Source of the DNA: Prevotella sp.
GTDB lineage: Bacteria > Bacteroidota > Bacteroidia > Bacteroidales > Bacteroidaceae
Direction: 5' to 3'
Assembly: GCA_017402445.1 (NCBI GenBank)
Contig: JAFPME010000014.1
Coordinates: 1 to 58,976, forward strand
DNA length: 58,976 bases
In this document: piece by piece, positions 2,502-53,548 of the stretch
Numbering within the stretch: position 1 is the stretch's first letter
How the letters are laid out: each line of letters starts with the position of its first letter
The notes under the pieces: generated by a model
Databases searched by the model: none
Told to the model about the DNA's origin: nothing
What the model saw: the letters and a program-made list of their open reading frames with translations, nothing else
Position numbers and translations under genes: made by a program

Positions 2502-2970
2502 GATTTTGAATAGATATGATGCTTTGTAAATATTTCATACCGAAAAAACGGGTAAAGATTTTCTTTCATTCTACGAAGACGGAAGCGGTTGTTTTTCCAA
2601 AAAAATCGGATAAAACATGAAGATTTTTCTTTCCGTTTTTCAAAATGGCCCATTTTACGCGGCAAAATGGCCCGTTCTGCCGTTCAGAATGATTCATTCT
2701 GTCGAGCAAAAAGGGCCGTTTTCGCGTGCAGAATGAGTCATTTTGAAAGTCCGAAAAATGTAAAGAAAACACAAGTCGCTTTTTCCCAGTGCTTTAGAAC
2801 TTTCTCATATTTCGCGCGTACGCGTCCGTCGGATTTTTATTTTGGAAAGATGGCCTGCATTTCGTATAATAAATGTTATTTTGTAAGCATAATTCAGCGT
2901 TTACAAAGCCATCACCGGCTGAAGGAGAACCCCAAGTTCTTACACCACTTTCCTATTCCGAACTGGCGTT
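2502..2970 (+). repeat. Phased-palindrome intergenic element, copy 1
   Basis: First of five copies. It contains, in order, a leader (TGTAAATATTTCATACCG near 2525), five 15-bp palindromes starting at 2642, 2664, 2686, 2708 and 2730 (exact 22-bp steps), a conserved block GTAAAGAAAACACAAG (2760-2775), an alternating CGCGCGTACGCG block (2815-2826), and a tail CGTATAATAAATG. It fills most of the 2348-3173 gap between the LRR terminator and the pantothenate kinase promoter. A frame of over 100 codons is open across it, but codon changes between copies argue against a protein. Confidence 0.85.
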
Positions 2971-3106
2971 ATTTTATATGGACTGATCTATTTATAGATT
3001 GATTCGCTGGTATTGGTGGAATAAGATTAGGTCTTGAAAATGAAACCTGTGGAACGCTGTTCTCTGAGACGAAAGGATATTGAAAGAAAATAATCCTGCC
3101 ATTTGC

Positions 3107-3137
3107 TTGCTGCTTTCAGGCGAAAAGTGTATTTTTG
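3107..3137 (+). promoter_or_regulatory. Promoter of the pantothenate kinase gene
   Basis: -7 box TATTTTTG (3130-3137) with a -33-like TTGC (3107-3110) 19 bp upstream. Start codon at 3174 gives a leader of roughly 30 nt. Confidence 0.5.
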
Positions 3138-3173
3138 CACCGAAAACATCAAACATCTATCAATCATCAGACA

Positions 3174-4001
3174 ATGGGAATCATCATCGGCATCGACGTG
3201 GGGACCAGCACCACGAAGATTGTAGGACTGCGCGAGGGCGTGGTCATTTCTCCAACACGCATCCGGGCCACCGACCCCATCACCTCGCTCTACGGGGCCT
3301 TCGGAAAGTATCTCTACGACAATCACATCAGTCTCGACGACGTGGAGCAAGTGATGCTCACAGGAGTAGGCTCGGCCTACGTCAACAAACCCATCTACGG
3401 ACTGCCCACCGACAAAGCACAGGAATTCCTGGCCGACGGTCTCGGGGCACGGTATGAGAGCAAGCAGAACCGCATGCTCGTGGTCTCGATGGGCACGGGT
3501 ACGTCGTTCGTGAAGGTGGAGGGCAACGACATACGCCACATCGGCGGTATGGGCATCGGAGGCGGCACGCTGAAAGGACTGTCGCAGCTGCTCCTGAACA
3601 CCGACGACGTGAAGCATGTGGCGCAGATGGCAGAGAAAGGCGACGTGAAAAACGTCAACCTGCAGATTGGCGACATCAGCGCCACTCCGCTGCCGGGGCT
3701 GCCGCTCGAAGCCACCGCGTCCATTTTCGGTAACGTGAAGCTGACGGCCACGCACGAAGACATCGCCGCCGGGCTCATCTGCACTGTGCTACAGACCATC
3801 GGGTCGGCCACCGTGCTGGCCGCGCTGGGCAGCGACATCCGCGAATTCGTGCTCATCGGCAACCTGACCCTGCTGCCGCAGTGCCACCAGATTTTCCCCG
3901 AACTGGAGAAACTCTACGGCGTCCACTTCACCATTCCTAAGTACTCCGAGTTCTGCACGGCCATCGGAGCTGCCCTCTGTTTCAGGCAAACGAAGGAGTA
4001 G
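3174..4001 (+). CDS. coaW: Type II pantothenate kinase
   Basis: 275 residues, the length of bacterial type II PanK (CoaW, Fumble family), which phosphorylates pantothenate with ATP in the first committed step of coenzyme A synthesis. An ASKHA-type phosphate-1 loop, GIDVGTSTTK, lies at residues 5-14. The glycine-rich adenosine loop region GGMGIGGGTLKG follows the MGTGTSFVKV strand. The C-terminus FCTAIGAALCF also fits the family. The frame is open from 3135, but the start at 3174 follows the promoter's expected start site and gives the canonical N-terminus MGIIIGIDVG. Cytoplasmic and housekeeping; the glycosidase gene begins 87 bp downstream. Confidence 0.88.
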   Translation: MGIIIGIDVGTSTTKIVGLREGVVISPTRIRATDPITSLYGAFGKYLYDNHISLDDVEQVMLTGVGSAYVNKPIYGLPTDKAQEFLADGLGARYESKQNRMLVVSMGTGTSFVKVEGNDIRHIGGMGIGGGTLKGLSQLLLNTDDVKHVAQMAEKGDVKNVNLQIGDISATPLPGLPLEATASIFGNVKLTATHEDIAAGLICTVLQTIGSATVLAALGSDIREFVLIGNLTLLPQCHQIFPELEKLYGVHFTIPKYSEFCTAIGAALCFRQTKE

Positions 4002-4088
4002 ACGGCCTTTCGGTCCGCCAGGTATGATTACAAAAAGCCGGCGCGTGCGTCTTCATTGTACATTATATAACAATTAGACGCACACGCT

Positions 4089-7000
4089 ATGAGCAAAAGA
4101 CTGTTGTTTTTGAGCATCGCGCTGGCGGTTGTCAACTTGGCAACTGCGCGCGATGTCTTTGTTTCTACGTCGTTCCACGAACCGGCCACCGAAGGACTGC
4201 GCTTCATCTACAGCTACGACGGACTGCGGTGGGACAGCATTCAGGGCGTTTTCCTGCGGCCCGAGGTAGGAAAACAACACGTCATGCGCGACCCGAGCAT
4301 CGTGCGCGGGCCTGACGGCACGTTCCATCTCGTCTGGACCAGCTCGTGGCGCGGCGACCGCGGCTTCGGCTACGCCTCGTCGAAGGACCTCATCCACTGG
4401 ACCCCGCAGCGGTTCATCAGCACCGGCATGGACACAACGACCGTGAACACGTGGGCCCCCGAGCTGTTCTACGACGACGTGCGCCGGCAGTTCATGATCA
4501 TCTGGGCTTCGTGCGTGCCCGGCAAATTCCCCGACTATCAGGAAGACCACCTGAACAACCACCGTCTGTACTACATGACCACGCGCGACTTCCGCACGTT
4601 CTCGAAGACGCAACTGTTCTACGACCCCGACTTCTCGGCCATCGACGCCACGCTGGTGAAGCGCTCGAAAAACGACTACGTGATGGTGGTGAAGGACAAT
4701 TCGCGCCCCATGCGCAACATCAAGGTGGCCTTCGCCAAGAGTCCCTACGGACCGTGGAGCCAGGCTTCGGAGCCTTTCACCGAGAGCTTCACCGAAGGAC
4801 CCTCGACAGCCAAGCTCGGCGACTGGTACTACATCTACTACGACTCGTACCGCCACAAGATCTACGGCGCCCATCGCACGAAGGACTTCAAGACCTTCCA
4901 GGACCAGACGGGCAGCGTCAGCTTCCCACTGGGGCATAAGCACGGCACGGTATTCATGGCCGACGAGCAACTGGTGGAGAACCTGAAGAAGTACAACCGC
5001 GACTGCGTACGCTATACAGGAACGGCGATTGCCCGTCCTGAACGCCATGACGGCGGACTCCGACCCACCATCGGTGTGCACAACATCCAGACCATGCGCG
5101 GCCAGAAGCCGTGGACCTATAACCACCAGCCCATGATGGCCTACTGGAACGGACGCTTCTATATGCACTATCTCACCGACCCGCGCCATGAACACGAAGC
5201 ACCGGGAAAGACCATGCTACAGACTTCGGACGACGGATACGCATGGAGCGACCCCGTGGAATTGTTCCCCGAATACAATGTGCCCGAAGGATTTTGCAAG
5301 GAAGGGTCCGACCTGCCTGCCGCCCACAACCTGAAGGCCGTGATGCACCAGCGGGTGGGATGGTACGTGGCGCCCAACGGCAAGCTGCTGGCCATCGGCT
5401 ACTACGGCATCTGCCAGACGATGAAGGACGATCCCAACGACGGTAACGGCATCGGGCGCGTGGTGCGCGAGATCAGGAAGGACGGATCGTTCGGTCCCAT
5501 CTATTTCATCCACTATAATCACGGCTTCAACGAGAAGAACACCGACTATCCCTACTATAAGAAAGCGAAGGACAAGCAGCTCGTGAAGGCTGTTGACGCC
5601 CTGATAGCCGACCCCATGCAACGCATGCAATGGGCCGAAGAGAGCGACCGCGGCGACGAGATCCTGCCCTTCAAGTCGCCCCTGAAGGCATTCTGCGGCT
5701 ATACACTGCCCGACGGCCGAAAGGTGGGCTTATGGAAACATGCCCTGACGTCCATTTCTGCCGACGGCGGTAACACCTGGCGCGAGCCTGCCTACCGCGC
5801 TCCCGGACTGGTGAACAGCAACGCCAAGATTTGGGGACAGCGGCTGAGCGACGGTTCCTACGCCACGGTCTATAACCCGGCTGAATATCGCTGGCCACTG
5901 GCCATCAGCCTGAGCAGCGACGGACTGAACTACAACACGCTCTCGCTGGTTCACGGCGACGTGATGCCCCTGCGCCACGGCGGACAGTTCAAGAGCTACG
6001 GTCCGCAGTATGTGCGCGGCATTCAGGAGGGTAACGGCACGCCGAAAGACGGTCATCTGTGGGTGACCTACAGCACGAACAAGGAAGACATGTGGGTGTC
6101 GAGGATTGCCGTGCCTGTCAGACTGGCGGCCACCAGCCATGCCAACGGCAGTTTCTCGCAGTACAAGACGGAGGCCGACATGACCGACTGGAACCTTTAT
6201 ATGCCGCAACTGTGTCCCGTGTTTCTCCACGAGAATTCACTACATCTTTCTGACAGCGACCCCTACGACTATGCCAAGGCCGAACGTGTGATTCCAGCCA
6301 CGAAGGAACTGGAAGTGGAGTTCGACCTGATGATGGACCAGGATGACCGAGGAGAACTCGACGTCGAGTTCATGGACGACGGCGGAAACGTATGCTCGCG
6401 CATCGTGGTAGATTCAGCAGGAGCCATTCGCGTGAAGGGCGGTGCCCGCTATGGCACCCTTGTGAAAAAATATAAGAAGGGTGTGGTATACCACGTCAAG
6501 GCCTTGCTTTCCACGAGTCAGCACCGCGCCGTCTATTTCGTCGATGGCAAGAAAGTGAGCGAACGGCAGTTTGATACGCCCGTGGAAGCCGTCACGCGCA
6601 TCGTGTTCCGCACAGGAAAAGTCTTCACGGAGCCCAACAATGAGACCCCCGCCGATCAGGATTTCGACATGCCGCGAGCCGATGAACTCGACCCGACAGT
6701 AGGCTATCAAATTGCCAATGTGGTGAGCAGGCCGATGGCCGACGGCGTATTCCCCCTCCACGGCAGCGATGCACCGGCACTGGCCGCTCATGGTGGCAGT
6801 CTGTTTGTGAACCAGTACAACTGTCTGGATGCGCGTCCTGCCATGCAGATGCAGCCTACCGTGCTTTCCACAGACATCCTTCCGGCCTACGCCGACCGTT
6901 TTGCCGCAGACGAAAAAGCAATCTACGCCCACGACACGGAAGAACGGAAAGCTCCACAGCCTGATATTACGAACGATGATGCTGCCCGCTGGATGACAGA

Positions 7001-8348
7001 GAACATTCCCCTCTTCGATTGTCCCGACAACGATTTCAACGACATCTACTACTTCCGCTGGTGGTCGCTGCGCAAGCATATCAAGCGCACGCCCGTGGGC
7101 TACGGAATGACCGAATTCCTCGTTCCACGCTCCTATGCCGACCGCTACAACCTCATCGCTTGCGCCATCGGGCACCACGTCATGGAGACCCGTTGGCTGC
7201 GCGACACCACCTATCTGCACCAGATTCTGCGCACGTGGTACTATGGCAACGACGGGCAACCGATGCAGAAGATGAACAAATTCTCGTCGTGGAATCCCTG
7301 GGCCGTCGTGAATGCGTGGCAGGTGCTGGGCGACACAGCCTTCGTCGTAGCCCTGAAACCGCGGCTGGAGGAAGAATACGCCCGTTGGAAGAGCACCAAC
7401 CGACTGGCGAACGGACTCTACTGGCAGGGCGACGTGCAGGACGGCATGGAGGAAAGCATCTCCGGCGGACGCAAGAAGCAGTATGCACGGCCCACCATCA
7501 ACTCGTACATGTGCGGTAACGCCTATGCCCTGGCCCATCTCAACGCGCTGACCGGCGAATCTGACAAGACGACGCGCTATCTGGCCGAAGCCGATTCGCT
7601 GCGGTCGCGCATCCTCGACAAGCTGTGGAACAAGGAGCATCGCTTCTTTGAAACCATGCGCGGTGACTCGTCGGCACAGGTCCGCGAGGCCATCGGATAC
7701 ATTCCGTGGTACTTCAACCTGCCACCGAAAGACAGCCATTACGACGTGGCATGGCAGCAAGTGACCGATGAAATGGGCTTTTCTGCACCCTACGGACTGA
7801 CCACCGCCGAGCGTCGGCATCCCGAGTTCCGCTCGCATGGAGTGGGGCGGTGCGAATGGGACGGCGCCGTCTGGCCCTTCGCTACGTCGCAGACGCTCAC
7901 CGCCATGGCCAACTACCTAAACAACTATCCCTCGCCAGTGCTCACCGACTCGGTCTTCTTCCGTCAGATGGAGCTCTACGTGGAGAGCCAGCACCACCGC
8001 GGACGGCCCTACATCGGCGAATATCTGGACGAAAAGAACGGCGCTTGGCTCATGGGCGACCGCGAACGCTCGCGCTACTACAACCATTCCACGTTCAACG
8101 ACCTCATCATCACTGGCATTTGTGGCCTGCGACCGCAAGACGACGGCTCCGTCGTGGTCCGGCCGCTCGTACCGAAAGACAAGTGGGACTACTTCTGTCT
8201 CGACGGAGTGAACTACCGCGGGCGCGTTCTTACCATCATCTGGGACCGCGACGGCCAGCGATACCACCAAGGGAAGGGGCTGACCATCCTCATCGACGGA
8301 CGGAAAGCTGCCAACCGGAGCGATTTGGGAATACTTAAAACAGAATAG
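4089..8348 (+). CDS. Four-module secreted glycosidase (GH43-like + BNR propeller + LamG-like + six-hairpin)
   Basis: A 1419-residue protein with signal peptide MSKRLLFLSIALAVVNLATA. Module 1 (about 21-300) is a GH43-like five-bladed propeller with the expected acids D68 (RDPS), D186 (AIDATL) and E236 (TEGPS). Module 2 (about 315-690) is a sialidase/BNR-like propeller with Asp-boxes TSDDGYAWS (~380) and SADGGNTWR (~555). Module 3 (about 695-840) resembles a LamG/concanavalin-like sandwich. Module 4 (about 960-1390) is an (alpha/alpha)6 six-hairpin glycosidase like the MGH1 group, with HHRGRPYIGEYLDE near its end. It is followed with no gap by the STN-hydrolase, then GH95, so it is probably a periplasmic or surface enzyme for complex plant glycans. 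Substrate is inferred only. Fused architecture is unusual. Confidence 0.8.
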   Translation: MSKRLLFLSIALAVVNLATARDVFVSTSFHEPATEGLRFIYSYDGLRWDSIQGVFLRPEVGKQHVMRDPSIVRGPDGTFHLVWTSSWRGDRGFGYASSKDLIHWTPQRFISTGMDTTTVNTWAPELFYDDVRRQFMIIWASCVPGKFPDYQEDHLNNHRLYYMTTRDFRTFSKTQLFYDPDFSAIDATLVKRSKNDYVMVVKDNSRPMRNIKVAFAKSPYGPWSQASEPFTESFTEGPSTAKLGDWYYIYYDSYRHKIYGAHRTKDFKTFQDQTGSVSFPLGHKHGTVFMADEQLVENLKKYNRDCVRYTGTAIARPERHDGGLRPTIGVHNIQTMRGQKPWTYNHQPMMAYWNGRFYMHYLTDPRHEHEAPGKTMLQTSDDGYAWSDPVELFPEYNVPEGFCKEGSDLPAAHNLKAVMHQRVGWYVAPNGKLLAIGYYGICQTMKDDPNDGNGIGRVVREIRKDGSFGPIYFIHYNHGFNEKNTDYPYYKKAKDKQLVKAVDALIADPMQRMQWAEESDRGDEILPFKSPLKAFCGYTLPDGRKVGLWKHALTSISADGGNTWREPAYRAPGLVNSNAKIWGQRLSDGSYATVYNPAEYRWPLAISLSSDGLNYNTLSLVHGDVMPLRHGGQFKSYGPQYVRGIQEGNGTPKDGHLWVTYSTNKEDMWVSRIAVPVRLAATSHANGSFSQYKTEADMTDWNLYMPQLCPVFLHENSLHLSDSDPYDYAKAERVIPATKELEVEFDLMMDQDDRGELDVEFMDDGGNVCSRIVVDSAGAIRVKGGARYGTLVKKYKKGVVYHVKALLSTSQHRAVYFVDGKKVSERQFDTPVEAVTRIVFRTGKVFTEPNNETPADQDFDMPRADELDPTVGYQIANVVSRPMADGVFPLHGSDAPALAAHGGSLFVNQYNCLDARPAMQMQPTVLSTDILPAYADRFAADEKAIYAHDTEERKAPQPDITNDDAARWMTENIPLFDCPDNDFNDIYYFRWWSLRKHIKRTPVGYGMTEFLVPRSYADRYNLIACAIGHHVMETRWLRDTTYLHQILRTWYYGNDGQPMQKMNKFSSWNPWAVVNAWQVLGDTAFVVALKPRLEEEYARWKSTNRLANGLYWQGDVQDGMEESISGGRKKQYARPTINSYMCGNAYALAHLNALTGESDKTTRYLAEADSLRSRILDKLWNKEHRFFETMRGDSSAQVREAIGYIPWYFNLPPKDSHYDVAWQQVTDEMGFSAPYGLTTAERRHPEFRSHGVGRCEWDGAVWPFATSQTLTAMANYLNNYPSPVLTDSVFFRQMELYVESQHHRGRPYIGEYLDEKNGAWLMGDRERSRYYNHSTFNDLIITGICGLRPQDDGSVVVRPLVPKDKWDYFCLDGVNYRGRVLTIIWDRDGQRYHQGKGLTILIDGRKAANRSDLGILKTE

Positions 8349-9725
8349 ATGAAATCGATAATTTTCAACATGAAGGTAAAGGAAAATGCCGTTGTCTGCC
8401 TTTTCCTGTTTGCACTTCTGCCCTTGACGGCCACGGCTCAGACCTTCGAGGACAAGTTCACCCGTTCGCTGAGCGACGTGATGGCCGACGTTCAGTCGCG
8501 CTTCGGCATCCGGCTGAAGTACGACATGGACACCACCGGGCTGAAGATTGCATACGCCGACTTCCGCATACGGCCCTACTCGGTGGAGGAAACGCTGACG
8601 AACCTGCTCTCGCCGTTCGACTTCAAGCCGGTCTACCAGCAGGGAAACCTCTGGAAGGTGAAACGCTACGAGTACCCGCGGCGACAGCCTGCCGACGGCA
8701 AGAAGCTCATAGCGTGGCTTGGTTCCTTATATAATAATAAGGTGGAGTGGGAATCCCGGCGCGACACGCTGCGCGCGGAGGTGCGCCAACGGTTGGGCAT
8801 CGACCCGCTGTTGCGCCTTTGCCTGTCACAGAAGAACGAGTTCGGACCCGTCAGGAAGCACGATGGCTACACCGTCCAGAACTTCCGGCTGACGACCGTC
8901 AACGGCCATACGGTCTGTGGCAGCATCTACTCGCCTGTTGCCTTGTCGTGGAAAAAAGGCAAGTTTGACACGGATGGCAAGCGGAAAACAGGCAAATATC
9001 CGCTCATTGTCTGCCCCAACGGCCACTTCAACGGCGGACGTTACAACGCCGACCTGCAGCGACGCTACGCCACACTGGCCCGCATGGGGGCCGTGTGCGT
9101 CAGCTACGACCTGTGGGGATGGGGTGAGAGCGAGGACGAAGTGGGCACCGCGGCGCACCACACCAGCGAGGCCCACGTGATGCAGGTGCTCAACGGGCTG
9201 CGCATTCTCGACTTGCTCTACGCACATAAGGACATCGACCCGACGCGCATCGGCGTGAACGGAGGCTCGGGTGGAGGCACACAGACCGTGCTGCTCTCCG
9301 TGCTCGACCAGCGGTTCACGGTCGCCTGTCCCGTGGTCAGCATGTCGTCGTGGTTCGACGGCGGCTGCCCCTGCGAGAGCGGCATGCCCATCCAGCTCAG
9401 CGGCGGCGGCACCTGCAATGCCGAACTGGCAGCACTGTTTGCTCCGAAGCCTATGATGGTGGTGAGCGACGGCGGCGACTGGACCAGCACGACGCCCGAA
9501 CTGGAGTTCCCTTACCTGCAGCGCATCTACGGTTTCTACGGCCGTCAGGACCAGGTCAGGAACGTTCACCTGCCCGACGAGCGTCATGACTTTGGCCCGA
9601 ACAAGCGTCAGGCTGTTTACGATTTCTTCATCGACGTCTTCGGCCTGGACCGCAGTAGGCTCGACGAGAAGAAAGTCAGCATCGAGGACGAGTCGGTCCT
9701 GCGCTTCACACCTAAAAAGAAATAA
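8349..9725 (+). CDS. STN-domain alpha/beta hydrolase (probable carbohydrate esterase)
   Basis: 458 residues; signal peptide ends near TATAQ (about 31). Residues about 35-108 look like an STN domain, the short N-terminal domain of secretins and TonB receptors (SLSDVMADVQSRFGIRLKYD, then SVEETLTNLLSPF). The rest is an alpha/beta hydrolase: nucleophile elbow GGSGGG (~302-308), oxyanion-side CPNGHFNGG, candidate acid in SDGGDW (~372) and catalytic His in ERHDFG (~411). It resembles acetylxylan-esterase/dienelactone-hydrolase-like enzymes of Bacteroides pectin loci (a CE19-like relation is possible but unproven). The ATG abuts the previous stop codon, so it is co-translated with the four-module glycosidase. 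De-esterification of the glycan is the likely role. Confidence 0.75.
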   Translation: MKSIIFNMKVKENAVVCLFLFALLPLTATAQTFEDKFTRSLSDVMADVQSRFGIRLKYDMDTTGLKIAYADFRIRPYSVEETLTNLLSPFDFKPVYQQGNLWKVKRYEYPRRQPADGKKLIAWLGSLYNNKVEWESRRDTLRAEVRQRLGIDPLLRLCLSQKNEFGPVRKHDGYTVQNFRLTTVNGHTVCGSIYSPVALSWKKGKFDTDGKRKTGKYPLIVCPNGHFNGGRYNADLQRRYATLARMGAVCVSYDLWGWGESEDEVGTAAHHTSEAHVMQVLNGLRILDLLYAHKDIDPTRIGVNGGSGGGTQTVLLSVLDQRFTVACPVVSMSSWFDGGCPCESGMPIQLSGGGTCNAELAALFAPKPMMVVSDGGDWTSTTPELEFPYLQRIYGFYGRQDQVRNVHLPDERHDFGPNKRQAVYDFFIDVFGLDRSRLDEKKVSIEDESVLRFTPKKK

Positions 9726-9774
9726 CCGAAGAGTGAGTCTTCTCAGTATTTAAAACCCCGACAGACATAAACGC

Positions 9775-12333: not shown

Positions 12334-12364
12334 CCCCCGAGCTCCGCTCGCTTTGCTCGTCGAA

Positions 12365-12472: not shown

Positions 12473-12510
12473 CAAAGCCAAACCTTTCAAATCTTACAAG
12501 TATGACTAAG

Positions 12511-12975
12511 ATTTTGAATGGGTATGTATGATGTATTGTAAATATTTCATACCGAAAAAACGGGTATAGATTTTCTTTCATTTTACGAAGACGGAAGCGG
12601 TTGTTTTGTCAAAAGAATCGGACAAAACCGGAAGATTTTTCTTTCCGTTTTTCAAAATGGCTCATTTTACGCCGCAAAATGGCCCGTTCTGCCGTTCAGA
12701 ATGATTCATTCTGTCGAGCAAAATGGGCCTTTTTCGTGTGCAGAATGAGCCATTTTGAAAGCCCAAAAAATGTAAAGAAAACACAAGTTGTTTGTTTCCA
12801 GACTCTTATAACTTTCTCATATTTCGCGCATACGCGTCCGTCGGCTTTTTATTTTGGAAAGATGGCCTGCATTTCGTATAATAAATGTTATTTTGTAAGC
12901 ATAATTCAGCACTCTCCCGACCGACATCTGCAGAGAAAGAAACACGTATCACACCCCTTCCCTTTCCCAAACCGA
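12511..12975 (+). repeat. Phased-palindrome intergenic element, copy 2
   Basis: Second copy, lying between convergent GH95 and GH28. Palindromes start at 12654, 12676, 12698, 12720 and 12742, again in exact 22-bp steps. The flanking blocks GTAAAGAAAACACAAG and CGTATAATAAATG are retained; the distal ~80 bp has diverged from copy 1. Confidence 0.85.
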
Positions 12976-25477: not shown

Positions 25478-25579
25478 CAAAACAGTCGTGCTGTCCGGTC
25501 AAGTATTTGGACAGGAATCAGAATTTCATTTTTCTTCAAGCTGAGACAAGCAGCATTTCCCAAAGGGGAAAGCCAAATG

Positions 25580-26026
25580 AACGCCAGTTCGGAATAAGAA
25601 AGGGATGTAAGAACGTGGTTTCCTTCCTCTGCAGTTGATGGCTGTGCAAATGCTGAATTATGCTTACAAAATAACATTTATTATACGAAATGCAGGCCAT
25701 CTTTCCAAAATAAAAAACTGACGGACGCGTACGCGCGAAATATGAGAAAGTTCTAAAGCGCTGGGAAAAAGCGACTTGTGTTTTCTTTACATTTTTCGGG
25801 CTTTCAAAATGACTCATTCTGCACACGAAAAAGGCCCGTTTTGCTCGACAGAATGAATCATTCTGCGCGGCAGAATGGGCCTTTTTGCCGCGTAAAATGG
25901 GCCATTTTGAAAAACGGAAAGAAAAATCTTCCGGTTTTGTCCGATTCTTTTGGAAAAACAACCGCTTCCGTCTTCGTAGAATGAAAGAAAAATCTTACAC
26001 GTTTTTTCGGTATATTTTATTTACAA
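25580..26026 (-). repeat. Phased-palindrome intergenic element, copy 3 (inverted)
   Basis: Third copy, in reverse orientation between convergent DUF58 and GH43. On the plus strand palindromes start at 25806, 25828, 25850, 25872 and 25894, exact 22-bp steps. It occupies most of the 25478-26067 gap. The remaining bases at 25478-25579 hold only a short CTGTCC/GGACAG hairpin near 25495. Confidence 0.85.
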
Positions 26027-26067
26027 TCTCACTGAAGTTTTCATTCTGTTTGAAAGAAAATGGCGCG

Positions 26068-37972: not shown

Positions 37973-38129
37973 ACTTAAAACTTGGTAAATTGTCGGGCAG
38001 AAATCGCTGTTCCTTCTTTCCTTTCATCATTATGGGGGATGAACGACGGAACGCTCCGGAGCTCTTCCTGCGGGCCCCGTCGGCAACCGAAACGATGCGG
38101 AAAACGAAGTCGCCGAGACGGGGTTTGTC

Positions 38130-38455
38130 AACATTTTCTACCAAAAAAACAGGTACACATTTTTTTTCATTCTACGTGAACGAATGCGGTTGTCACGGTA
38201 AAAGAATCGGACAAAAGCGGAAAATTTTTCTGACTGTTTTTCAAAATGGACCATTTTACATTGCAAAACGGGCCATTCTGCTCGTCAGAATGAGCCGTTT
38301 TGCTCGCCGAAATGGCCCGTTTCTGAGAGTAAAATGAGTCATTTTGAAAGCCTGAAAAATGTAAAGAAAATACAAGAGCTTTCGTATCAGGCGGTTAGGA
38401 CTCTCTCATATTTCGCTTGTACGCGTCCGTCGGATTTTTATTTTAGAATGATGGC
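38130..38455 (+). repeat. Phased-palindrome intergenic element, copy 4 (diverged, 3'-truncated)
   Basis: Lies in the 37885-38649 gap between the divergent porin and SusC genes. Palindromes start at 38243, 38265, 38287, 38309 and 38331, still exactly 22 bp apart although many bases differ from the other copies. The tail after TTTTTATTTTAGAATGATGG is lost. The frame that is open in other copies has an in-frame stop here (TTTTTCTGA, near 38227). The remaining bases 38456-38582 show nothing recognisable. Confidence 0.8.
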
Positions 38456-38582
38456 ACTCACGGAGGGCCAAATTGCACTTTTTGTCAAATTAATTCAGAT
38501 GGTACAAGGCGAAGCCCTGCTCGCCGTGAAGTCCCGGAAACAGCAATAAGCAGGCTTTTCGGTCAACTTTTTTTATAAATGT

Positions 38583-43044: not shown

Positions 43045-43119
43045 ATCATTCACCCATCGACAATGAATCAGGTTTAATCATTTCTTGTAGCAATCGTGTG
43101 CAGAAAAACAGGATATAGC

Positions 43120-43150: not shown

Positions 43151-43172
43151 CAGCATAGAAACAGTTATCTAT

Positions 43173-44245: not shown

Positions 44246-44251
44246 ATTTCC

Positions 44252-45298: not shown

Positions 45299-45320
45299 CA
45301 GCTCCCTACAAAAACATATC

Positions 45321-46055: not shown

Positions 46056-47645
46056 ATGAAACATGATAATAAACTTAAACACACAACAGGAATGAAGAAT
46101 CTTATAATGTGGAGAAAATCGCAGTTTAGCGAAAACCATGCTAATGGCCGAGCGAGAGCGATTTATGCAATCGCATTTGCGATGCTTGTTGTCCTCTCCC
46201 TCGCCTCTTGCAGCAGCGACGATGAGGAAATAAGACAAGATTACCAGCCAGCCCATCGCTCGGTCATATTCAACGGAGTGAAATTGGTGCTGACAGATGC
46301 TGACGGTAACGACCTTGGCGGTCAGACCGAAATGTTCAGTACACTGAGGATCTATGGCAACTTGTCTAAGCAATACGTTTCGACAGAAAGACGGACAGAG
46401 GACGGGATAACATATATTAAGTTCAATGCCGACTTGCCCGACGAGCGGAATATCAACTACAATGAAACCAAACATATCGGCACGGGAACTTCCACGATGA
46501 CCATTACTGTCGATGGAAAAACCGCATATCTGACGTTTGCCTTCGAAGCCATCAGTAGCGGTGAGGTTATGTATGGAGGTAATGACATCCACGTCATCGG
46601 TGCTAAGCTTGGCAACGAGTTCATTACTAACGAAGAGGACGGTGATATGGTGGTCGTACTGATTGTAAACAAAGACAGGCTGACTCTCTCAGACAACGTG
46701 CCCATTCCCGAGGAAGCCGCAGCAACCAGCCTGACTGCCGATGCCCCACTGAAGGACAAGACCTATCTGGGATCAGGCTATGATGTGACGGGAGCCTTTC
46801 TCAGCAACGACTGCTTGCGTGAGAACGTGATAGACTTGAGCAAGTTCGATGACAGCGAAAAAATGAATTTAGATGCTTATAGTGGCTCGGGAACTATAGT
46901 TAGTGGAGTTAACAATGCATGGGGATTCCTCAATGGGCTCCGCAAAGGATTGGGATTCACACAGGAGGGTGAACCTGGCGATGTCTATTTTGCCGGAACG
47001 TTTACGGACAATCCGCTATTCAAAGACGCCTCGGAACGTGGCGACGACTTTTCTTTCTTGATGTATATGGACCGCTACACCGCCTTTAGCCACCATCTCA
47101 ACATGCCTATCAATCCATCCAAGGCTCAGTTGGAGCAAATGCTGACCGACGAATTTAAGAAGGCACTGGCCGAGGAAAGTGCTGAACGCATCGTGGAACG
47201 TTTCGGTACACACGTGCTGAAGAAGGCTGCCATGGGAGTGAACATCCTTTCGCTCTACCGCTCTGGCCTGAAAGCCAATACCCGCGATGCTGACCGCTTT
47301 ACGGCAAGTATGTTCCGCCGCATGAACGAAGTCTACCGCCCCATATTCTGGGGCATCACAGACCGTAAGGCCACCAAGGGCGGCGCCATCTCCTGCCAAT
47401 TTCATGGTGGGGCAACACAGCAACTGTCGGCAACATTGGCCCGTTCTCCCATGTCGACTGAAGAATCATCTGCTGCCATCGCCAACTGGTGGAACCAGTC
47501 ATGCGAAGACGAAACCAATCTTTCGCTTGCTTGGTTGCAGGAAGACCACCTGATCCCCATCTACAAACTGGTGCCCGATGAGACCAAAAGGGCAGAGGTG
47601 CAGCGTGCCGTCAAGGCATACATCCACAGCCACCAGTTGAACTAA
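46056..47645 (+). CDS. MACPF-domain lipoprotein (BSAP-like)
   Basis: 529 residues from ATG 46056 (ATG 46092 is an alternative). SpII lipobox VLSLASC then SSDDEE. The MACPF/CDC signature is seen as ERFGTHVLKKAAMG (~378-391). After it come the predicted helix clusters and the C-terminal SLAWLQEDHLIPIYKLVPDE, similar to the C-terminal end of Bacteroidales MACPF proteins. MACPF lipoproteins of Bacteroidales include secreted antimicrobial toxins (BSAPs) that kill competing strains by pore formation, and others with unknown roles. This one has a long N-terminal beta-rich region before the MACPF core. Its target is unknown. Confidence 0.83.
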   Translation: MKHDNKLKHTTGMKNLIMWRKSQFSENHANGRARAIYAIAFAMLVVLSLASCSSDDEEIRQDYQPAHRSVIFNGVKLVLTDADGNDLGGQTEMFSTLRIYGNLSKQYVSTERRTEDGITYIKFNADLPDERNINYNETKHIGTGTSTMTITVDGKTAYLTFAFEAISSGEVMYGGNDIHVIGAKLGNEFITNEEDGDMVVVLIVNKDRLTLSDNVPIPEEAAATSLTADAPLKDKTYLGSGYDVTGAFLSNDCLRENVIDLSKFDDSEKMNLDAYSGSGTIVSGVNNAWGFLNGLRKGLGFTQEGEPGDVYFAGTFTDNPLFKDASERGDDFSFLMYMDRYTAFSHHLNMPINPSKAQLEQMLTDEFKKALAEESAERIVERFGTHVLKKAAMGVNILSLYRSGLKANTRDADRFTASMFRRMNEVYRPIFWGITDRKATKGGAISCQFHGGATQQLSATLARSPMSTEESSAAIANWWNQSCEDETNLSLAWLQEDHLIPIYKLVPDETKRAEVQRAVKAYIHSHQLN

Positions 47646-47697
47646 GCAAATCGGAAACGAATAAGCCTGTTAATACTCATCCTTCAACAAGAAGGAA

Positions 47698-47740
47698 CCG
47701 AGCCACATGGGTAAATCTCGGATGTGGTTCGGAAGGTCTT
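47698..47740 (+). terminator. Hairpin terminator of the MACPF gene
   Basis: CCGAGCCACAT / ATGTGGTTCGG stem (47698-47708 and 47722-47732, one G-U pair) followed by AAGGTCTTTT. The rest of 47646-47861 contains no gene. Confidence 0.55.
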
Positions 47741-47861
47741 TTGCTTTGGCTGGCACCTATGTCTACGCCGAAAGAAAGTCAAGTCGTTTTTGCGAACGTG
47801 CAGTTGAATGAAATAGAATGAAGCATTATAGTAAACTTTACAACTTTAATATAAAACAGAA

Positions 47862-48224
47862 ATGATGAATTTAAAAATCTGGAGACTCGCATTCATGGTG
47901 CTTGCTGCTTTCTCCATCGCCTCTTGCGGCAGCGACGATGAAAGTTATTCAACATATTCTTTTGGGCTTACGTCTGCTATCAATGGCAACAATTCCGAAA
48001 TAGAGGCTATTGAATTTGCATATACCGATGCCTACAAGATGAACAAGATCAAATTCAATCAGCAATTTTTTGCTCCTGGAACGTCAAAAGACTTAATACT
48101 CAAATCTTGCAAACAAGCCGAAATTGCCATTCTCACTTCGTCGAGAAAATTCGGAGGACGTTATGTGTATGAAGTAAAATCGAAAGATGAAGTTCTGTAT
48201 CAGATAGTATATGGAACCAGATAA
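47862..48224 (+). CDS. Small hypothetical lipoprotein
   Basis: 120 residues (ATG also at 47865). SpII signal: LKIWRLAFMVLAAFSIASC, followed by GSDDESYSTY, very like the signal of the MACPF gene upstream (both end in ASC[S/G]SDDE). The mature part is about 97 residues with two predicted beta-strand pairs (IEAIEFAY, AEIAILTSSRKFGGRYVYEV). No family recognised; it may act with, or confer immunity to, the neighbouring MACPF protein, but that is only proximity. Confidence 0.65.
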   Translation: MMNLKIWRLAFMVLAAFSIASCGSDDESYSTYSFGLTSAINGNNSEIEAIEFAYTDAYKMNKIKFNQQFFAPGTSKDLILKSCKQAEIAILTSSRKFGGRYVYEVKSKDEVLYQIVYGTR

Positions 48225-48248
48225 CAGAATAGAAATGAAACGATACAG

Positions 48249-48300
48249 ATAAAAACGCCAGCGAGACAAACAAGAATAATCTGTTTGTCTCGCTGGCGTT
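48249..48300 (-). terminator. Strong hairpin terminator, U-tract on minus strand
   Basis: Perfect 18-bp stem AACGCCAGCGAGACAAAC / GTTTGTCTCGCTGGCGTT (48254-48271, 48283-48300), loop 11 nt; TTTTT follows on the minus strand (48249-48255). It ends the FMN-binding gene and may also stop plus-strand transcription. Confidence 0.75.
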
Positions 48301-48408
48301 AAACGGTTTAGACTTAGATGTAAGCCTTAATACTCATTCTCGTTGAAGAAGAGTTCCTTCTGGGATGCACCGATGCTTTACGCCTGACGAAAGTGTCGGT
48401 GTGTTTTT

Positions 48409-48828
48409 TTACTTGTTCTTCTGGTAGTATTCCAGCCCTTTCTTGACGTTCGTCTTCACGGCATCGCTGGAAAGGGTAGCACCGGTCACACCGTCTACTT
48501 TCATCTTCGCAGCTTTTTTCACCGTCTTGCCGTTCCATTTCGGCAGCACTTGCTCCTTGACACGGGCGAAATACTTAGGCGTTTCCTGGTTCTTGATGGC
48601 TTCGATGCGCTCCACTTTGTCTTTCTTGATATAAATCTTCAGGGGAGTCGTGCTGCGATAGCCCTTCACGCTGGAGGCCAGTGTGGTCGTGTTCACGACG
48701 TATGTTCCGTCGGGCAGTTTCGTCATGGCGTCGTTGTCCTGAGATCCTGCCTTTGCCTGTACGAAGGCGAAAGCACCCGTCAGCACGAGTGCACTGCACG
48801 CAATGCTATTCAAAAATCTTTTCTTCAT
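48409..48828 (-). CDS. Exported FMN-binding domain protein
   Basis: 139 residues from ATG 48828 (MKKRFLNSIACSALVLTGAF signal peptide). The mature protein is one FMN-binding domain: LPDGTYVVNTTT near residue 45-56, the central VERIEAIKNQETPKYF, and the flavinylation motif DGVTGATLSSDAVK (~115-128), where the Thr of SGAT/TGAT type motifs carries covalent FMN. Single-domain members act in extracytoplasmic electron transfer with a membrane quinol donor; an ApbE flavin transferase would be needed but is not in the window. It faces the small lipoprotein gene convergently. Confidence 0.85.
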   Translation of the reverse strand: MKKRFLNSIACSALVLTGAFAFVQAKAGSQDNDAMTKLPDGTYVVNTTTLASSVKGYRSTTPLKIYIKKDKVERIEAIKNQETPKYFARVKEQVLPKWNGKTVKKAAKMKVDGVTGATLSSDAVKTNVKKGLEYYQKNK

Positions 48829-48856
48829 TGTTGTTCCTGATGGTCTTTTACGCATG

Positions 48857-48864
48857 CAAAGGTA
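48857..48864 (-). promoter_or_regulatory. -7 box of the FMN-binding gene
   Basis: TACCTTTG on the minus strand, 29 bp upstream of the start; no clear -33 box. Confidence 0.4.
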
Positions 48865-49002
48865 AAAAAATATGTGGGTATACATGTTCTTGTGACATAA
48901 AAATTAAAGATAATTAGTGCAGAGGAGGTGTGGATAAGCTTGTTTTACAATTCTAAGTGTCAGATTTCCGTGCGATTAGGGTGCTGTTTGACAGAAAAAC
49001 AG

Positions 49003-49010
49003 TATATTTG
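49003..49010 (+). promoter_or_regulatory. -7 box of the DUF4861-like gene
   Basis: TATATTTG, followed by CAACGACAAA; -33 is weak. The 48829-49081 gap holds only this and the opposing -7 box. Confidence 0.4.
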
Positions 49011-49081
49011 CAACGACAAAGGGGGAGCAGCAGAAGAACTTCATGACGGACTGCTTGCCCCGGTGCGAAACTACAGAATCA

Positions 49082-50323
49082 ATGAAAATGAACAAGAAAG
49101 GAATCATGCTGGCCTGTCTGCTGCTTGGCACTTGTACGATGGCCCAGGCTCAGCAAACAGAAGAGACGAAGACCGTAGCCATCATCATTGGCAACGATGG
49201 CGACATGCAGAGACAGCAAGTGGTCGAAACAGAGGCTGCCGCAGTGCGTCGCAAACTGGGATTGAACGAGCAGGAGACGTTCGTGCTCCGCAATGCCGCA
49301 GGCCAGCAGGTGGACTATCAGATTTCGTACGACGGCATGTTGCTCTTCGAAGCTTCGGTCCAGCCGCACCGGAAAGCAATCTTCCGTGCTGAAAAGGGTG
49401 TGCCGCGAGCTGCTAAGACATGGGTGCACGGAGCGCAATATAAAATCAGGAAGGACGACATGGCATGGGAGAACGACCGATCAGCCTACCGAATGTACGG
49501 CCCGGCACTGCAGCAGACGGGCGAGCGTTCGTTCGGCATTGACGTGTGGACGAAGCGAACGCCTGAGCTGGTGCTCGACGAGCGCTACCAGACCGATTAC
49601 CGCGGCAACGTCGTCGAGGATTCTTTGCGGCGGTCTGGCAATAAGGATGCTGCCCGTGACGTCGACTTAGAGACGTCGTTCCACCTCGACCACGGCTATG
49701 GCATGGATGCATACGGCGTCGGTCCAACACTGGGATGCGGCGCTCCGGCGCTGCTCGACGGCGAAAGGCTCATCCTGCCGTGGTGCTACGAGAGCTATCG
49801 CATTCTCGATAACGGACCCTTACGCTTCACGGCGGAGCTGACTTATCAGCCTGTGAGCATCAGCCACGCCTCGCCTGCCGGGCAAACCACGTCTGTCGTC
49901 ACCGAACATCGCTTGCTTTCGCTCGACAAGGGATCGAATTTCAACCGCATGACGGTGTGGTACGACGGGTTGAAGTCGCCGTTGGCACTCGCTGCCGGTG
50001 TGGTGCTGCATGGCGGCAAGCCCCTTCTGGCGAAGGACCATGTGCTCTATGCCGACCCTACCGAAGCTCCTGACCGACACAATTCCCAGGTGTTCGTCGC
50101 CACGTTGTTCCACAACGGCGTCGACCAGACGCGCGTCCTGAAGTCCGACGAGAGAGTCAGCCATGCCATCGGCATTGTCGACAACTACGACGGACATCCT
50201 TATACCTACTACTTCGGCGCAGCATGGAGTCTCTACGACGTCCGTTCCATCGAGGAATGGCAGCTGCGCGCCACGCAGTTCATGCAGGCACTGGAACAGC
50301 CGCTCTCCATCACGCTTCAATAA
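49082..50323 (+). CDS. DUF4861-like exported protein
   Basis: 413 residues from ATG 49082; signal peptide ends near TMAQAQ. Family-like blocks: YGPALQQTGERSFGIDVWTKR, HLDHGYGMDAYGVGPTLGCG, YRILDNGPLRFTAELTYQP and YYFGAAWSLYDVRSIEEW. DUF4861 proteins occur in Bacteroidota loci for pectin or arabinogalactan and probably act on carbohydrate, but no activity is established by this sequence. It stands away from the glycosidase clusters. The last codons (LSITLQ) are duplicated 64 bp downstream. Confidence 0.75.
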   Translation: MKMNKKGIMLACLLLGTCTMAQAQQTEETKTVAIIIGNDGDMQRQQVVETEAAAVRRKLGLNEQETFVLRNAAGQQVDYQISYDGMLLFEASVQPHRKAIFRAEKGVPRAAKTWVHGAQYKIRKDDMAWENDRSAYRMYGPALQQTGERSFGIDVWTKRTPELVLDERYQTDYRGNVVEDSLRRSGNKDAARDVDLETSFHLDHGYGMDAYGVGPTLGCGAPALLDGERLILPWCYESYRILDNGPLRFTAELTYQPVSISHASPAGQTTSVVTEHRLLSLDKGSNFNRMTVWYDGLKSPLALAAGVVLHGGKPLLAKDHVLYADPTEAPDRHNSQVFVATLFHNGVDQTRVLKSDERVSHAIGIVDNYDGHPYTYYFGAAWSLYDVRSIEEWQLRATQFMQALEQPLSITLQ

Positions 50324-50394
50324 AGGCCCCACGCAGTTCTGTTTGCGGCGATACCATCGCCGCAAACTCTCCATTACCCTTCAATAAAGGCCCC
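50303..50394 (+). repeat. 64-bp offset direct repeat of a gene end, enclosing a hairpin
   Basis: CTCTCCATCACGCTTCAATA with the following AAGGCCCC (50303-50330) recurs at 50367-50394 with two changes. Between them GTTTGCGGCGAT acc ATCGCCGCAAAC (50341-50367) forms a perfect 12-bp stem that may terminate transcription. Confidence 0.75.
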
Positions 50395-50468
50395 CCATTC
50401 TGCCGCTGCCTATTTCATAATAAAAGATAAATAATGAACGAATCTTCGTCCATTCATTTTTTTTTACG

Positions 50469-50476
50469 TAAATTTG
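50469..50476 (+). promoter_or_regulatory. -7 box of pnp
   Basis: TAAATTTG at 50469-50476; 74-nt leader before ATG 50551, A+T-rich. PNPase leaders in other bacteria are autoregulatory, but no obvious hairpin is visible here. Confidence 0.45.
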
Positions 50477-50550
50477 CACGATTTTTGCGCACAGACTACT
50501 TCGTGCGCAGGCAAGATGTTAGTTAAAACAATAAGTATTTTAAATTTTAG

Positions 50551-52944
50551 ATGAACGTAATTACGAAAACCCTTCAGTTGGCTGATGGCAGAACCATCAC
50601 CATTGAAACCGGGAAAGTGGCAAAACAGACCGACGGTTCCGTTGTCCTCCGCATGAACAACACCGTTCTACTGGCCACTGTTTGTGCCGCAAAGGATGCA
50701 GTTCCCGGAACAGACTTCATGCCTTTGCAAGTAGACTACCGCGAGCAGTACGCTGCTGCAGGACGGTTCCCCGGTGGATTCACCAAGCGCGAAGGCAAAG
50801 CCAGCGACAACGAAATCCTCACCAGCCGACTCGTCGACCGTGTGCTTCGCCCGCTCTTCCCCTCTAACTACCATGCCGAGGTGTTTGTAAACGTCATGCT
50901 GCTCAGTGCCGATGGTGTTGACCAGCCCGATGCCTTGGCCGGATTCGCAGCTTCAGCAGCTTTGGCCTGTTCAGATATTCCCTTCGAGTGCCCCATCTCC
51001 GAAGTGCGTGTCGCCCGTATCGGTGGCGAATATGTCATCAACCCCACATTCGAGCAGATGAAAGAAGCCGACATGGACATCATGGTCGGCGCATCGGCCG
51101 ACAACATTATGATGGTCGAAGGCGAGATGAAGGAGGTGTCCGAGCAGGATATGATCGGCGCACTGAAGGCGGCCATGGCAGCCATCAAGCCCATGTGCGA
51201 GCTGCAGACAGAGCTCTCCAAGGAGCTCGGTAAGGACGTCAAGCGCGAATACGACCACGAGGTGAACGACGAGGCCCTGCGCGAGCAGATGAACAAGGAG
51301 CTCTACCAGCCCGCCTACGACATCACCAAGCAGGCTCTGCCCAAGCAGGACCGTGCCGACGCCTTCGAGAAGCTGCTCTCCGACTTCAAGGAGAAATTCT
51401 TCGAGGCTCATCCCGAGATCACGGCCGACTCCGAAGTGTCGAAAGACGAGTACGACGCCATGATGGACCGCTACTATCACGACGTGGAGCGCGACGCCAT
51501 GCGCCGCTGCATCCTCGACGAGGGCATCCGTCTTGACGGCCGCAAGTGCGACGAGATACGCCCCATCTGGTGCGAAGTGTCGCCTCTGCCCATGCCTCAC
51601 GGAAGCTCCATCTTCACGCGCGGAGAGACACAGAGCCTCACCACCTGCACACTCGGAACGAAGCTCGACGAGAAACTCGTCGACGACGTGCTGGAGCGCG
51701 GATACATGCGCTTCCTGCTCCACTATAACTTCCCGCCGTTCTGCACAGGCGAAGCACGCGCTCAGCGCAGCGTGGGCCGCCGCGAGATCGGTCACGGACA
51801 CCTCGCATGGCGCGGTCTGAAGGGCCAGATCCCCGAAGACTTCCCCTACACCGTACGCCTCGTCAGCCAGATTCTCGAGTCCAACGGTTCCTCTTCCATG
51901 GCTACCGTCTGCGCCGGAACGCTCGCATTGATGGATGCCGGCGTACCCATGAAGAAGCCCGTCAGCGGCATCGCCATGGGTCTGATCAAGAATCCGGGCG
52001 AAGAGAAGTATGCCGTCCTGAGCGATATCCTCGGCGATGAGGACCATCTCGGCGACATGGACTTCAAGACAACAGGTACCGTCGACGGCCTGACAGCCAC
52101 ACAGATGGACATCAAGTGCGACGGACTGTCGTTCGAGATTCTCGAGAAAGCACTCATGCAGGCCAAGGCCGGACGCGAGCACATCCTGAAGTGCCTCACC
52201 GACACCATCGCCGAACCGCGTGCTGAGATGAAGCCCCAGGTGCCGCGCATCGAGCAGTTCGAGATTCCTAAGGAGTTCATCGGAGCCGTTATCGGCCCGG
52301 GCGGAAAGATTATCCAGCAGATGCAGGAGGACAGCGGAGCCACCATCACCATCGACGAGATCGACGGCGTGGGCAAGGTGCAGGTCAGCGCTCCTAACAA
52401 GGAGAGCATCGATCTCGCCATACAGAAGATTCGCGCCATCGTAGCCATCCCCGAGGTGGGCGAAGTCTACGAAGGCACCGTACGCTCCATCATGCCTTAC
52501 GGCTGCTTCGTTGAGATCATGCCGGGCAAGGACGGACTGCTCCACATCTCCGAGATTGACTGGAAGCGACTCGAAACCGTCGAGGAAGCCGGACTGAAGG
52601 AAGGCGACAAGATTACCGTCAAGCTGCTCGAAATCGACCCGAAGACTGGCAAGTATAAGCTCTCTCACCGCGTCCTCATCCCCAAACCCGAGGGTTACGT
52701 GGAGCGTGAGCGCCGTCCGCGCGGCGAGCGCAACCGCAACGGTAACAACAATGGCGAGCGGCGTGCCAACGGCGAACGTCGCAACAACGAGCGGCGCCCG
52801 CACGACAATCGTCACGCTAACAACGGAGAGCGTGCTCCACGCAACGCCAACTTCGACGGTAGCAGAGAACAAGACTACCACGATCCCATGAACGACCACG
52901 AGCCGAAGGACTTCAACGACTCGCTCGACCACATGGATTTCTAA
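50551..52944 (+). CDS. pnp: Polynucleotide phosphorylase
   Basis: 797 residues, the expected size plus a tail. Two RNase PH domains (about 10-230 and 315-550) are joined by the helical linker. The second holds the phosphate/catalytic region ([20 protein letters not shown], ~490-510). KH domain [14 protein letters not shown] (~575), S1 domain [20 protein letters not shown] (~640-710). The C-terminal ~85 residues are a low-complexity Arg/Asn/Gly/Glu-rich tail ([20 protein letters not shown]), probably RNA-binding and disordered. Cytoplasmic 3'-5' exoribonuclease of mRNA decay. Well supported. Confidence 0.97.
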
Positions 52945-52972
52945 ACCAATAAAATAGTCATAGCTCAATGTG

Positions 52973-53018
52973 AAGAGTCCCCGACGGCCTGACGATGGCT
53001 GCGGGGACTCTTTCTTTT
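52973..53018 (+). terminator. Rho-independent terminator of pnp
   Basis: 11-bp stem AAGAGTCCCCG / CGGGGACTCTT with an 18-nt loop and TTTCTTTT tract, 29 bp after the stop. Confidence 0.75.
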
Positions 53019-53104
53019 CGCGGCAACGACTCTTCCGCTGCCGAACACTTGAAAGCACTTTCCCGGTGAACGCATGCCGCCCAAGCCTTCCGGCATGGCA
53101 GAAT

Positions 53105-53548
53105 TGTAAACATTTCATACCGAAAAAACACGCACACTTTTTCTTTCATTCTACGAAGACGGAAGCGGTCGTTTTGTCAAAAGAATCGGACAAAACCGGA
53201 AGATTTTTCTTTCCGTTTTTCAAAATGGCTCATTTTACATTGCAAAACGGCCCGTTTTGCCGTTCAGAATGATTCATTCTGTCGAGCAAAATGGACCTTT
53301 TTCGCGTGCAGAATGAGTCATTTTGAAAGCCCGAAAAATGTAAAGAAAACACAAGTCGTTCGTTCCCAGCTCTTTATAACATTCTCATATTTCGCGCATA
53401 CGCGTCCACCAGATTTTTATTTTGGAAAACCCGCCGTAATTTCGTATAATAAATGTTATTTTGTAAGCATAATTCAGCGTTTCCCCGATTGTCATCTATA
53501 AGGGCGGATAGCCCAGTTCCTACACCACTTTCTTATTCCGAACAGGCA
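53105..53548 (+). repeat. Phased-palindrome intergenic element, copy 5
   Basis: Between convergent pnp and the second MACPF gene. Palindromes start at 53222, 53244, 53266, 53288 and 53310, exact 22-bp steps. The second unit is a perfect palindrome here (AAAACGG C CCGTTTT) where copy 1 has two mismatches, while the overlapping codons change (Met to Thr, Ser to Phe). Confidence 0.85.

Follow-up and report, generated by a model that had tools for sequence, protein, structure and literature searches.

Phased palindrome arrays in a lineage-restricted intergenic repeat of Prevotella as possible platforms for a DNA-binding protein

Introduction

PINSR of Prevotella intermedia, as characterized in the accessible part of its description, is a 188-bp repeat present in 177 and 184 copies and in few related Prevotella species, which lacks terminal inverted repeats and is said to have had some role in rearrangements (PMC4755523). 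BrickBuilt, a miniature inverted-repeat transposable element (MITE) of Porphyromonas gingivalis, is reported, in the portion of the source available, to consist of a leader, tandem 23-nt units and a tail, to be always intergenic and species-restricted, and to carry direct repeats (1 to 22.8 units) and IS5-family-like inverted ends, with both ends present in 4 of 19 copies (PMC4596501). Here we analyze a 58,976-base stretch of Prevotella sp. DNA (the window), an entire contig (C32) of a 1.87-Mb assembly that is 50.7% complete and that its relatives mark as Prevotella-like, which contains five copies of an intergenic repeat built around an array of short, evenly spaced palindromes (dyads). We favor, at a probability of about 0.58, the reading that these repeats are platforms for a lineage-specific putative DNA-binding protein, with phased dyads arrayed on one helix face; a chromosome-marking or architectural role is our favored guess for them.

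Other systems also use short palindromes. Repetitive extragenic palindromes and bacterial interspersed mosaic elements (REP/BIME), with their REP-associated tyrosine transposases (RAYT), are dispersed intergenic palindromes, and the matS, parS and Noc sites are chromosome-marking short dyads, single or loosely clustered and conserved in sequence. Prevotella-type bacteria, in which the present arrays occur, dominate the rumen and the gut of many people.

Anatomy and distribution of the repeat

A full copy comprises a leader of ∼115 bp, the array and a tail of ∼150 bp, giving a non-coding element of ∼380–450 bp as a whole. The array consists of five 15-bp palindromes of the form ARAAYG-N3-CRTTYT set 22 bp apart from start to start (the pitch); the remainder of the 59-kb window holds no perfect module. 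Left ends are sharp, most of them starting at TTTGTAAA or TTTGTCAA (TTTGTMAA), and right ends lie near ATTCAG. Sequence outside the ends is mostly unrelated between copies, although some copies of the source genome share ∼190 bp more on the left.

The intergenic repeat is lineage-restricted, and its five copies in the window are far beyond chance. Searches with two copies and the array pattern, followed by a hidden Markov model (HMM), recovered 51 copies in the source genome, 50 of them spanning at least 300 model positions; the possibility, raised in the initial annotation, that the family occurs only in this window therefore does not hold. A search of 60 genomes matched the source genome only. 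Four of ten relatives searched gave matches, namely Prevotella sp. UBA2756 (G060), the sister species, and three others in which they are weak and short. UBA2756 has its own large family, at 69–79% identity (41 HMM hits in 40 stretches, 35 covering at least 300 model positions), together with a single copy of the source-genome type (L182, G060:C15:10595-11046) that is 91% identical to the first window copy (c1) and represents either a recent transfer or a misbinned contig. The array pattern of the source genome was found in 3 of 200 same-genus genomes, namely the source itself (14 forward, 12 reverse), G119 (once) and G207 (once). The element had no match in the phage and plasmid collections, nor did its conserved block in the viral contigs. 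With a crude longest-open-reading-frame caller, and with copies below 100 bits excluded, the copies of the source genome fall into 19 convergent, 13 tandem and 12 divergent gaps; a neighbor pair was lacking for 7 copies there and for 5 in the sister species.

Conservation points to duplex DNA sites

The array alignment comprises 50 of the 51 arrays of the source genome and 34 from UBA2756, L182 and partial copies being excluded, and the 103-bp array shows no gap in any of these 84 rows. Pooled over strands, the half-sites read YARAAYGR in the source genome and YARAATGR in UBA2756, with a weakly conserved centre base. Mean information reaches 1.69 and 1.81 bits per position in the half-sites of the two species, against 1.02 and 1.48 in the spacers. 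With dyads in helix register and half-sites more conserved than spacers, the layout is that of a phased operator or centromere-like array.

The two arms of a palindrome do not covary: Watson-Crick pairs number 1274 in the source genome versus 1275.0 after permutation (p 0.61), and 874 versus 873.7 in UBA2756 (p 0.56). Since pairing equals the permuted expectation, the half-sites vary independently, as duplex sites do and hairpin arms do not. Arm mismatches in the source genome are even (92 G.T, 99 A.C), with no consistent G.T excess on one strand, and spacers there are not complementary (38% Watson-Crick; 65% in UBA2756). Copy 1 has a strong predicted fold on both strands (z −5.6 and −4.2), which is attributable to its palindromy, given arms that do not covary. 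Rfam gave no match in the whole window at the gathering score, and at a relaxed E-value copy 1 matched only four microRNA models, far below their cut-offs. Half-sites conserved above spacers, arrays free of indels and arms without covariation together make it more likely that dimers read the sites as double-stranded DNA, along one face of the helix, than that the array acts as RNA or forms hairpins.

The central triplets of the palindromes are typed by host. ACG/CGT centres occupy 62 of 170 modules in UBA2756 and none of 250 in the source genome, and GGC/GCC centres 114 of 250 modules in the source genome and 9 of 170 in UBA2756. The positional pair L225/L183 has flanks that are 98.3 and 98.7% identical and elements that are 92.9% identical, and two of the modules carry the central triplet typical of their own host genome; these two modules hint at a host-typed code and are not proof of one. 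Avoidance of restriction sites was considered as a cause of the triplet preferences and rejected, as neither GGCC nor GACGC departs clearly from its expected frequency outside the elements in either genome.

Related arrays in other Prevotellaceae

The weak HMM matches in relatives (L075, L093, L078, L083) cover mostly the array only, and two of them, L075 and L093, read out as AAAGGnnnCCTTT-like dyad arrays with the same pitch. A generic detector applied to 79 of 80 loci (1.59 Mb) reported 23 regular arrays and none in shuffled sequence; the largest pitch class was 22 bp (11 arrays), followed by 18 bp (7), 21 bp (3), 20 bp (1) and 44 bp (1). The class was first noticed in these same loci, so that the whole-genome searches are the tests, and the intergenic status of each array was not part of the scan. 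The palindrome sequences differ widely among species.

In the whole-genome searches, AAAGG pairs at a pitch of 21–23 bp were found in 10 of 12 genomes, most of which had been chosen as relatives of array carriers, with a maximum of 220 in G234 and none for the reversed pattern; UBA2756 and Bacteroides luti had no such pair. With the pitch left free between 15 and 45 bp, G234 gave 241 AAAGGnnnCCTTT pairs and the reversed-pattern control 0, and the 50 forward places listed divide into 47 with a spacing of 22 bp and 3 with 44 bp. The AAAGG-type arrays examined in G234 and its relatives have 2 to 4 modules, and none lies within a predicted gene (22 rows, at least 2 of which are the same array re-read from overlapping loci). 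The flanks of 11 distinct G234 arrays are unrelated save for one 20-bp match, which indicates that the array itself is the conserved thing. Across 37 G234 modules, half-site positions −6 to −2 carry 1.55–2.00 bits, versus 0.05–0.45 at outer spacer positions −11 to −9. In three species, one and the same 818-aa gene (proteins 91–95% identical) is followed by an array, which is thus vertically kept. Arrays conserved in position upstream of a marker gene were also considered; this was rejected, as upstream neighbors mostly differ and the gaps are not orthologous. The AAAGG half-site (YAAAAGGY) and that of the source genome (YARAAYGR) have the A-tract in common, with positions −3 and −1 as the main points of difference.

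A third type, GTAATnnnRTTAC, occurs at 12 places spread round the chromosome in the complete genome G024. Five of the 12 lie within 1.10–1.60 Mb, near the cumulative-skew minimum (p 0.02, from a coarse 20-point profile and an interval chosen post hoc), a concentration to be treated as a lead only. In viral contigs, among which the share of Prevotella phages is undefined, AAAGG pairs at pitch 22 occur in 1 stretch, triplets of the source-genome type in none, and control pairs at pitch 20 in none.

Several further arrays were observed beside these types. The pitch-18 arrays (L051 14113, L100 1578, L118 11495, L120 19923, L074 17192, L088 10747, L106 14165) and the pitch-20 array (L065 6748) are tandem 9-bp (or 10-bp) units, most with a short palindrome such as TCTAGA, ACTAGT, CCTAGG or CTATAG, and constitute, in Prevotella relatives, a second type of phased palindrome. 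At L232 13158 (G024:C1, ∼888.1–888.5 kb), 14 tandem 25-bp units with a GTAATC..GATTAC dyad make an array far longer than the others of G024. The reversed control pattern, the dyad TTACnnnGTAA, hits 30 and 27 times in the same-genus genome G219 and a few times in some others; its occurrences in G219 are read as a probable further array type.

Copies in the window

All five copies announced in the initial annotation were recovered, with ends within ∼25 bp of those it gave; four are direct and one is inverted, and they are ∼73–93% identical to copy 1 by repeat search and alignment. The core measures ∼380 bp, and the four long-tailed copies reach ∼445–450 bp. Copy c1 (2524..2975, + strand; HMM-projected core 2524–2912, long tail to 2975) lies in a tandem gap, its array (2642..2744, +) having module starts at 2642, 2664, 2686, 2708 and 2730. 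Three copies lie in convergent gaps: c2 (12536..12974, +; core 12536–12921, long tail to 12974), with its array at 12654..12756 (+; module starts 12654, 12676, 12698, 12720 and 12742); c3 (25575..26027, − strand, inverted; core 25638–26026, homology reaching 25575), with its array at 25806..25908 (−; starts 25806, 25828, 25850, 25872 and 25894); and c5 (53104..53548, +; core 53104–53488, long tail to 53547), with its array at 53222..53324 (+; starts 53222, 53244, 53266, 53288 and 53310). Copy c4 (38125..38506, +), of a short-tail subtype, occupies a divergent gap, with its array at 38243..38345 (+; starts 38243, 38265, 38287, 38309 and 38331).

These gap types, called with crude open reading frames (ORFs), agree with the earlier description, as does the lack of a transposase, the 7 overlapping ORFs having no Pfam family match. 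The palindrome array named there is present and is more regular than had been claimed, each copy having five 15-mers whose starts are exactly 22 bp apart. The statement that copies never lie in genes is broadly true, but a few long predicted ORFs enter copies elsewhere in the genome and in UBA2756, mostly at an uncertain start.

Two other features lie toward the right end of the window. Direct repeats of 119 bp at 53557–53675 and 56203–56321 (86% identical) flank a MACPF-domain gene (53801–56110); each contains GGCGACACC...GGTGTCGCC, a terminator-like inverted repeat, and the left one begins just past c5. An IS1595/ISXO2-type transposase gene lies at 57429–58511, near the contig end.

Synteny, mobility and turnover

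Gene order differs from UBA2756 at all five window copies. Compared with the 24-kb locus L103 alone, the block at 3.1–12.3 kb ends near c1 and c2. The blocks flanking c3 lie on UBA2756 contigs C51 and C35, which continue for 26 and 6 kb, and the two at c4 are both on C2, in opposite orientation and separated by 9.4 kb. Those flanking c5 are on C40 and C2, the C40 block being 1.45 kb from the contig start. A comparison of 31.0 kb with the entire sister genome showed four places at which neighboring matches relocate, three of them at copies; the break at 30.8 kb lacks one, and matching also ends at 48.4 and 57.4 kb. Elsewhere in the source genome, compared with part of UBA2756, L039 and L041 have their two flanks at different places, and L224, L225 and L021 have syntenic flanks. 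Identity falls from 98.9% in the flank to 72.8% inside the element at L039/L199, and from 97–98% to 64% at L032/L206. As a separate observation, a 22-bp direct tandem repeat with the unit CAAGCAAAACAAATTAAATTAC lies at L284 700-830 (G060:C2, ∼97.7 kb), just past the UBA2756 block corresponding to the right-hand side of c5.

One filled/empty pair has both flanks syntenic: at L021 a 388-bp element fills a convergent gap, and the counterpart in UBA2756 is ∼94 bp long and unrelated in sequence. A second candidate, L037/L190, was rejected because the gap is too rearranged. Terminal inverted repeats were not found, the consensus ends of the two species giving at most 15 and 17 ungapped matches of 40 over 13 shifts. 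Target site duplications were likewise not found in the 63 copies with both ends placed, the right end to within a few bases only: the mean longest direct repeat is 4.29, versus 4.36 with shuffled partners (p 0.74). A comparison by eye of possible covarying end repeats (TTTGTAAA/TTTGTCAA at left and right) gave no consistent pattern, and the candidate was dropped. A Y1 transposase (PF01797) was detected in one of 6 genomes, the source genome (one 31-bit match, 265-aa frame), and was not found in the array-bearing G060, G234, G235 and G241, nor in G242, which has no AAAGG pair; these genomes may be incomplete, and other transposases were not searched. Mobility of the repeat by a Y1/RAYT enzyme is unlikely.

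In a tree of 85 copies, grouping follows the genome, with 4 label changes versus 27 for shuffled labels. Support is weak (84/45) for a 21-row group (20 copies of the source genome and L182) and stands at 98/96 for a group of 14 rows from UBA2756. L182 of UBA2756 sits in the source-genome clade, and L225 and L039 of the source genome sit in the UBA2756 clade. The short branches within genomes suggest recent bursts, the largest group of the source genome being weakly supported. The positional pair L225/L183 is recovered in the tree, but L224/L202 and L032/L206 are split; with the grouping by genome, this indicates that copies are homogenized or replaced within genomes, or that they turn over fast.

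Discussion

Of the three roles proposed in the initial annotation, a cluster of protein-binding sites is the one that the sequence evidence supports best, given the rigid pitch and the more conserved half-sites. Each 15-bp site would be bound by a dimer of one host-encoded putative DNA-binding protein. With a 22-bp pitch equal to two helical turns, five dimers would come to lie on one face and may form a cooperative nucleoprotein platform, which the repeat, spreading by copying, would carry into many intergenic gaps. The array of the source genome would be the local form of the 22-bp phased palindrome arrays of several Prevotellaceae, which in other clades would occur as arrays without the repeat. 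Coevolution of arrays and protein would be expected to give half-sites that differ by clade, as they do here. As for the role, our favored guess, made from sequence features, would be chromosome marking or architecture rather than silencing or expression control, because the sites stand in all gap types, are intergenic and are almost absent from viral contigs.

A number of observations weigh against this reading. No candidate binding protein was found. The leaders are nearly indel-free too (gapped rows: 3 of 50 in the source genome, 2 of 33 in UBA2756; tails: 9 of 50 and 21 of 35), so that freedom from indels does not by itself distinguish the array, and leader and tail are conserved as well, with no role assigned to them. 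The G119 and G207 matches are lone tandem repeats with another core, and the seven 18-bp arrays (9-bp unit) are a different repeat type. The pitch is not universal, as G024 mixes 22 and 25 bp (one 24), nor is the class, as 200 kb sampled from the complete genome G016 contained no regular 22-bp array. Arm mismatches in UBA2756 lean to A.C (84 versus 60 G.T, p 0.055), so some strand effect is possible there. Of the 28 differences between L225 and L183, 10 fall in the array, which is no significant concentration (p 0.18), and across all 28 the bases show no host-type bias (12 and 13 of 28). Finally, convergent gaps are over-represented (30 of 78 resolved copies of the two species versus an assumed 25%), an excess that a neutral chromosome mark would not need.

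The rival that deserves most discussion is a non-autonomous mobile element, in which the array would be a platform for the mobilizing enzyme and any host function secondary. Close-copy groups in each genome, the clustering by genome, the sharp left ends, the L021 filled/empty pair and the 91% identical copy in UBA2756 all fit such an element. This part of the earlier proposal stands, but the label MITE is unsupported, as neither inverted ends nor flanking duplications were found; the failure to match an Rfam family or to show these MITE features also leaves the repeat outside the known families that the initial annotation had allowed for. In addition, the Y1 transposase, the one transposase type searched, was not found in four of five array-bearing genomes, some of them incomplete, no common element surrounds the 11 G234 arrays, and one array stays behind the same gene in three species. 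We consider mobility as the primary explanation unlikely. A different role, in which the repeats or their gaps act as recombination junctions that join or exchange gene blocks between lineages, guided by the array, would account for the gene-order differences at all window copies, for the coincidence of relocated matches with copies and for the drops in identity at element boundaries. Yet L224 and L225 are filled in both species between syntenic flanks and L021 is syntenic around an empty sister site, breaks and stops occur without a copy, long gaps in general may hold breaks at a similar rate, and two comparisons are constrained by the use of L103 alone (c1/c2) and by a nearby contig start (c5); this role is very improbable.

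Readings that dispense with a DNA-binding protein fare worse still. The structured RNA of the initial annotation, or an array of DNA hairpins, could draw on the strong predicted fold of copy 1 and on the A.C lean in UBA2756; however, palindromy explains the fold, the arms do not covary, a consistent one-strand G.T excess is missing, spacers in the source genome are not complementary and Rfam holds no match, which makes such a structure hardly credible. Neutral minisatellite debris would explain tandem units in mostly intergenic positions, but spacers that diverge more than half-sites, a constant pitch that recurs with unrelated sequences and five units in every aligned array render it equally implausible.

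The platform reading can be extended, tentatively and with more doubt than confidence, to the family as a whole. Many Prevotellaceae chromosomes may be marked by dozens to more than 100 intergenic dyad arrays of 22-bp pitch, each lineage reading them with one fast-evolving protein, so that the half-site and triplet code drifts while the geometry stays; some lineages would have taken the array into an amplifying repeat, and the system would be new to the literature. If the arrays are bound as proposed, they constitute a genome-wide nucleoprotein system of strict geometry and clade-specific code in Prevotella-type bacteria, for which we found no name. The array could serve as bait for its protein and its type as a lineage marker in metagenomes, and the system, if real, might account for PINSR and other lineage-specific repeats; the function of PINSR was an open question in 2015.

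Comparison with known systems

No description of such phased dyad arrays was found in the open-access PMC literature, as represented by the accessible text of reports including PMC5771137. The matS, parS and Noc sites share with the present arrays the use of short chromosomal dyads, here near absent from viral contigs, but the present dyads form phased arrays whose half-site changes by clade. REP/BIME-RAYT systems differ in another way: here five short dyads stand at fixed pitch, their arms do not covary, and the Y1 enzyme was not found in four of the five array-bearing genomes searched. BrickBuilt resembles the repeat in its leader-array-tail layout, but five 22-bp dyads per aligned array and the lack of inverted ends set the repeat apart, as far as the available part of that description allows (PMC4596501). 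The claim that no described family is like it was nevertheless too strong, since PINSR, to judge from the accessible part of its report, is of the same kind, a lineage-specific intergenic Prevotella repeat (PMC4755523). Both are intergenic, non-coding, multi-copy and lineage-restricted and lack inverted ends; PINSR differs in its 188-bp length, and that part of the report mentions no phased array, the comparison being by description and not by sequence (PMC4755523). On the available portions of both sources, PINSR is thus the closest known relative in kind, followed by BrickBuilt.

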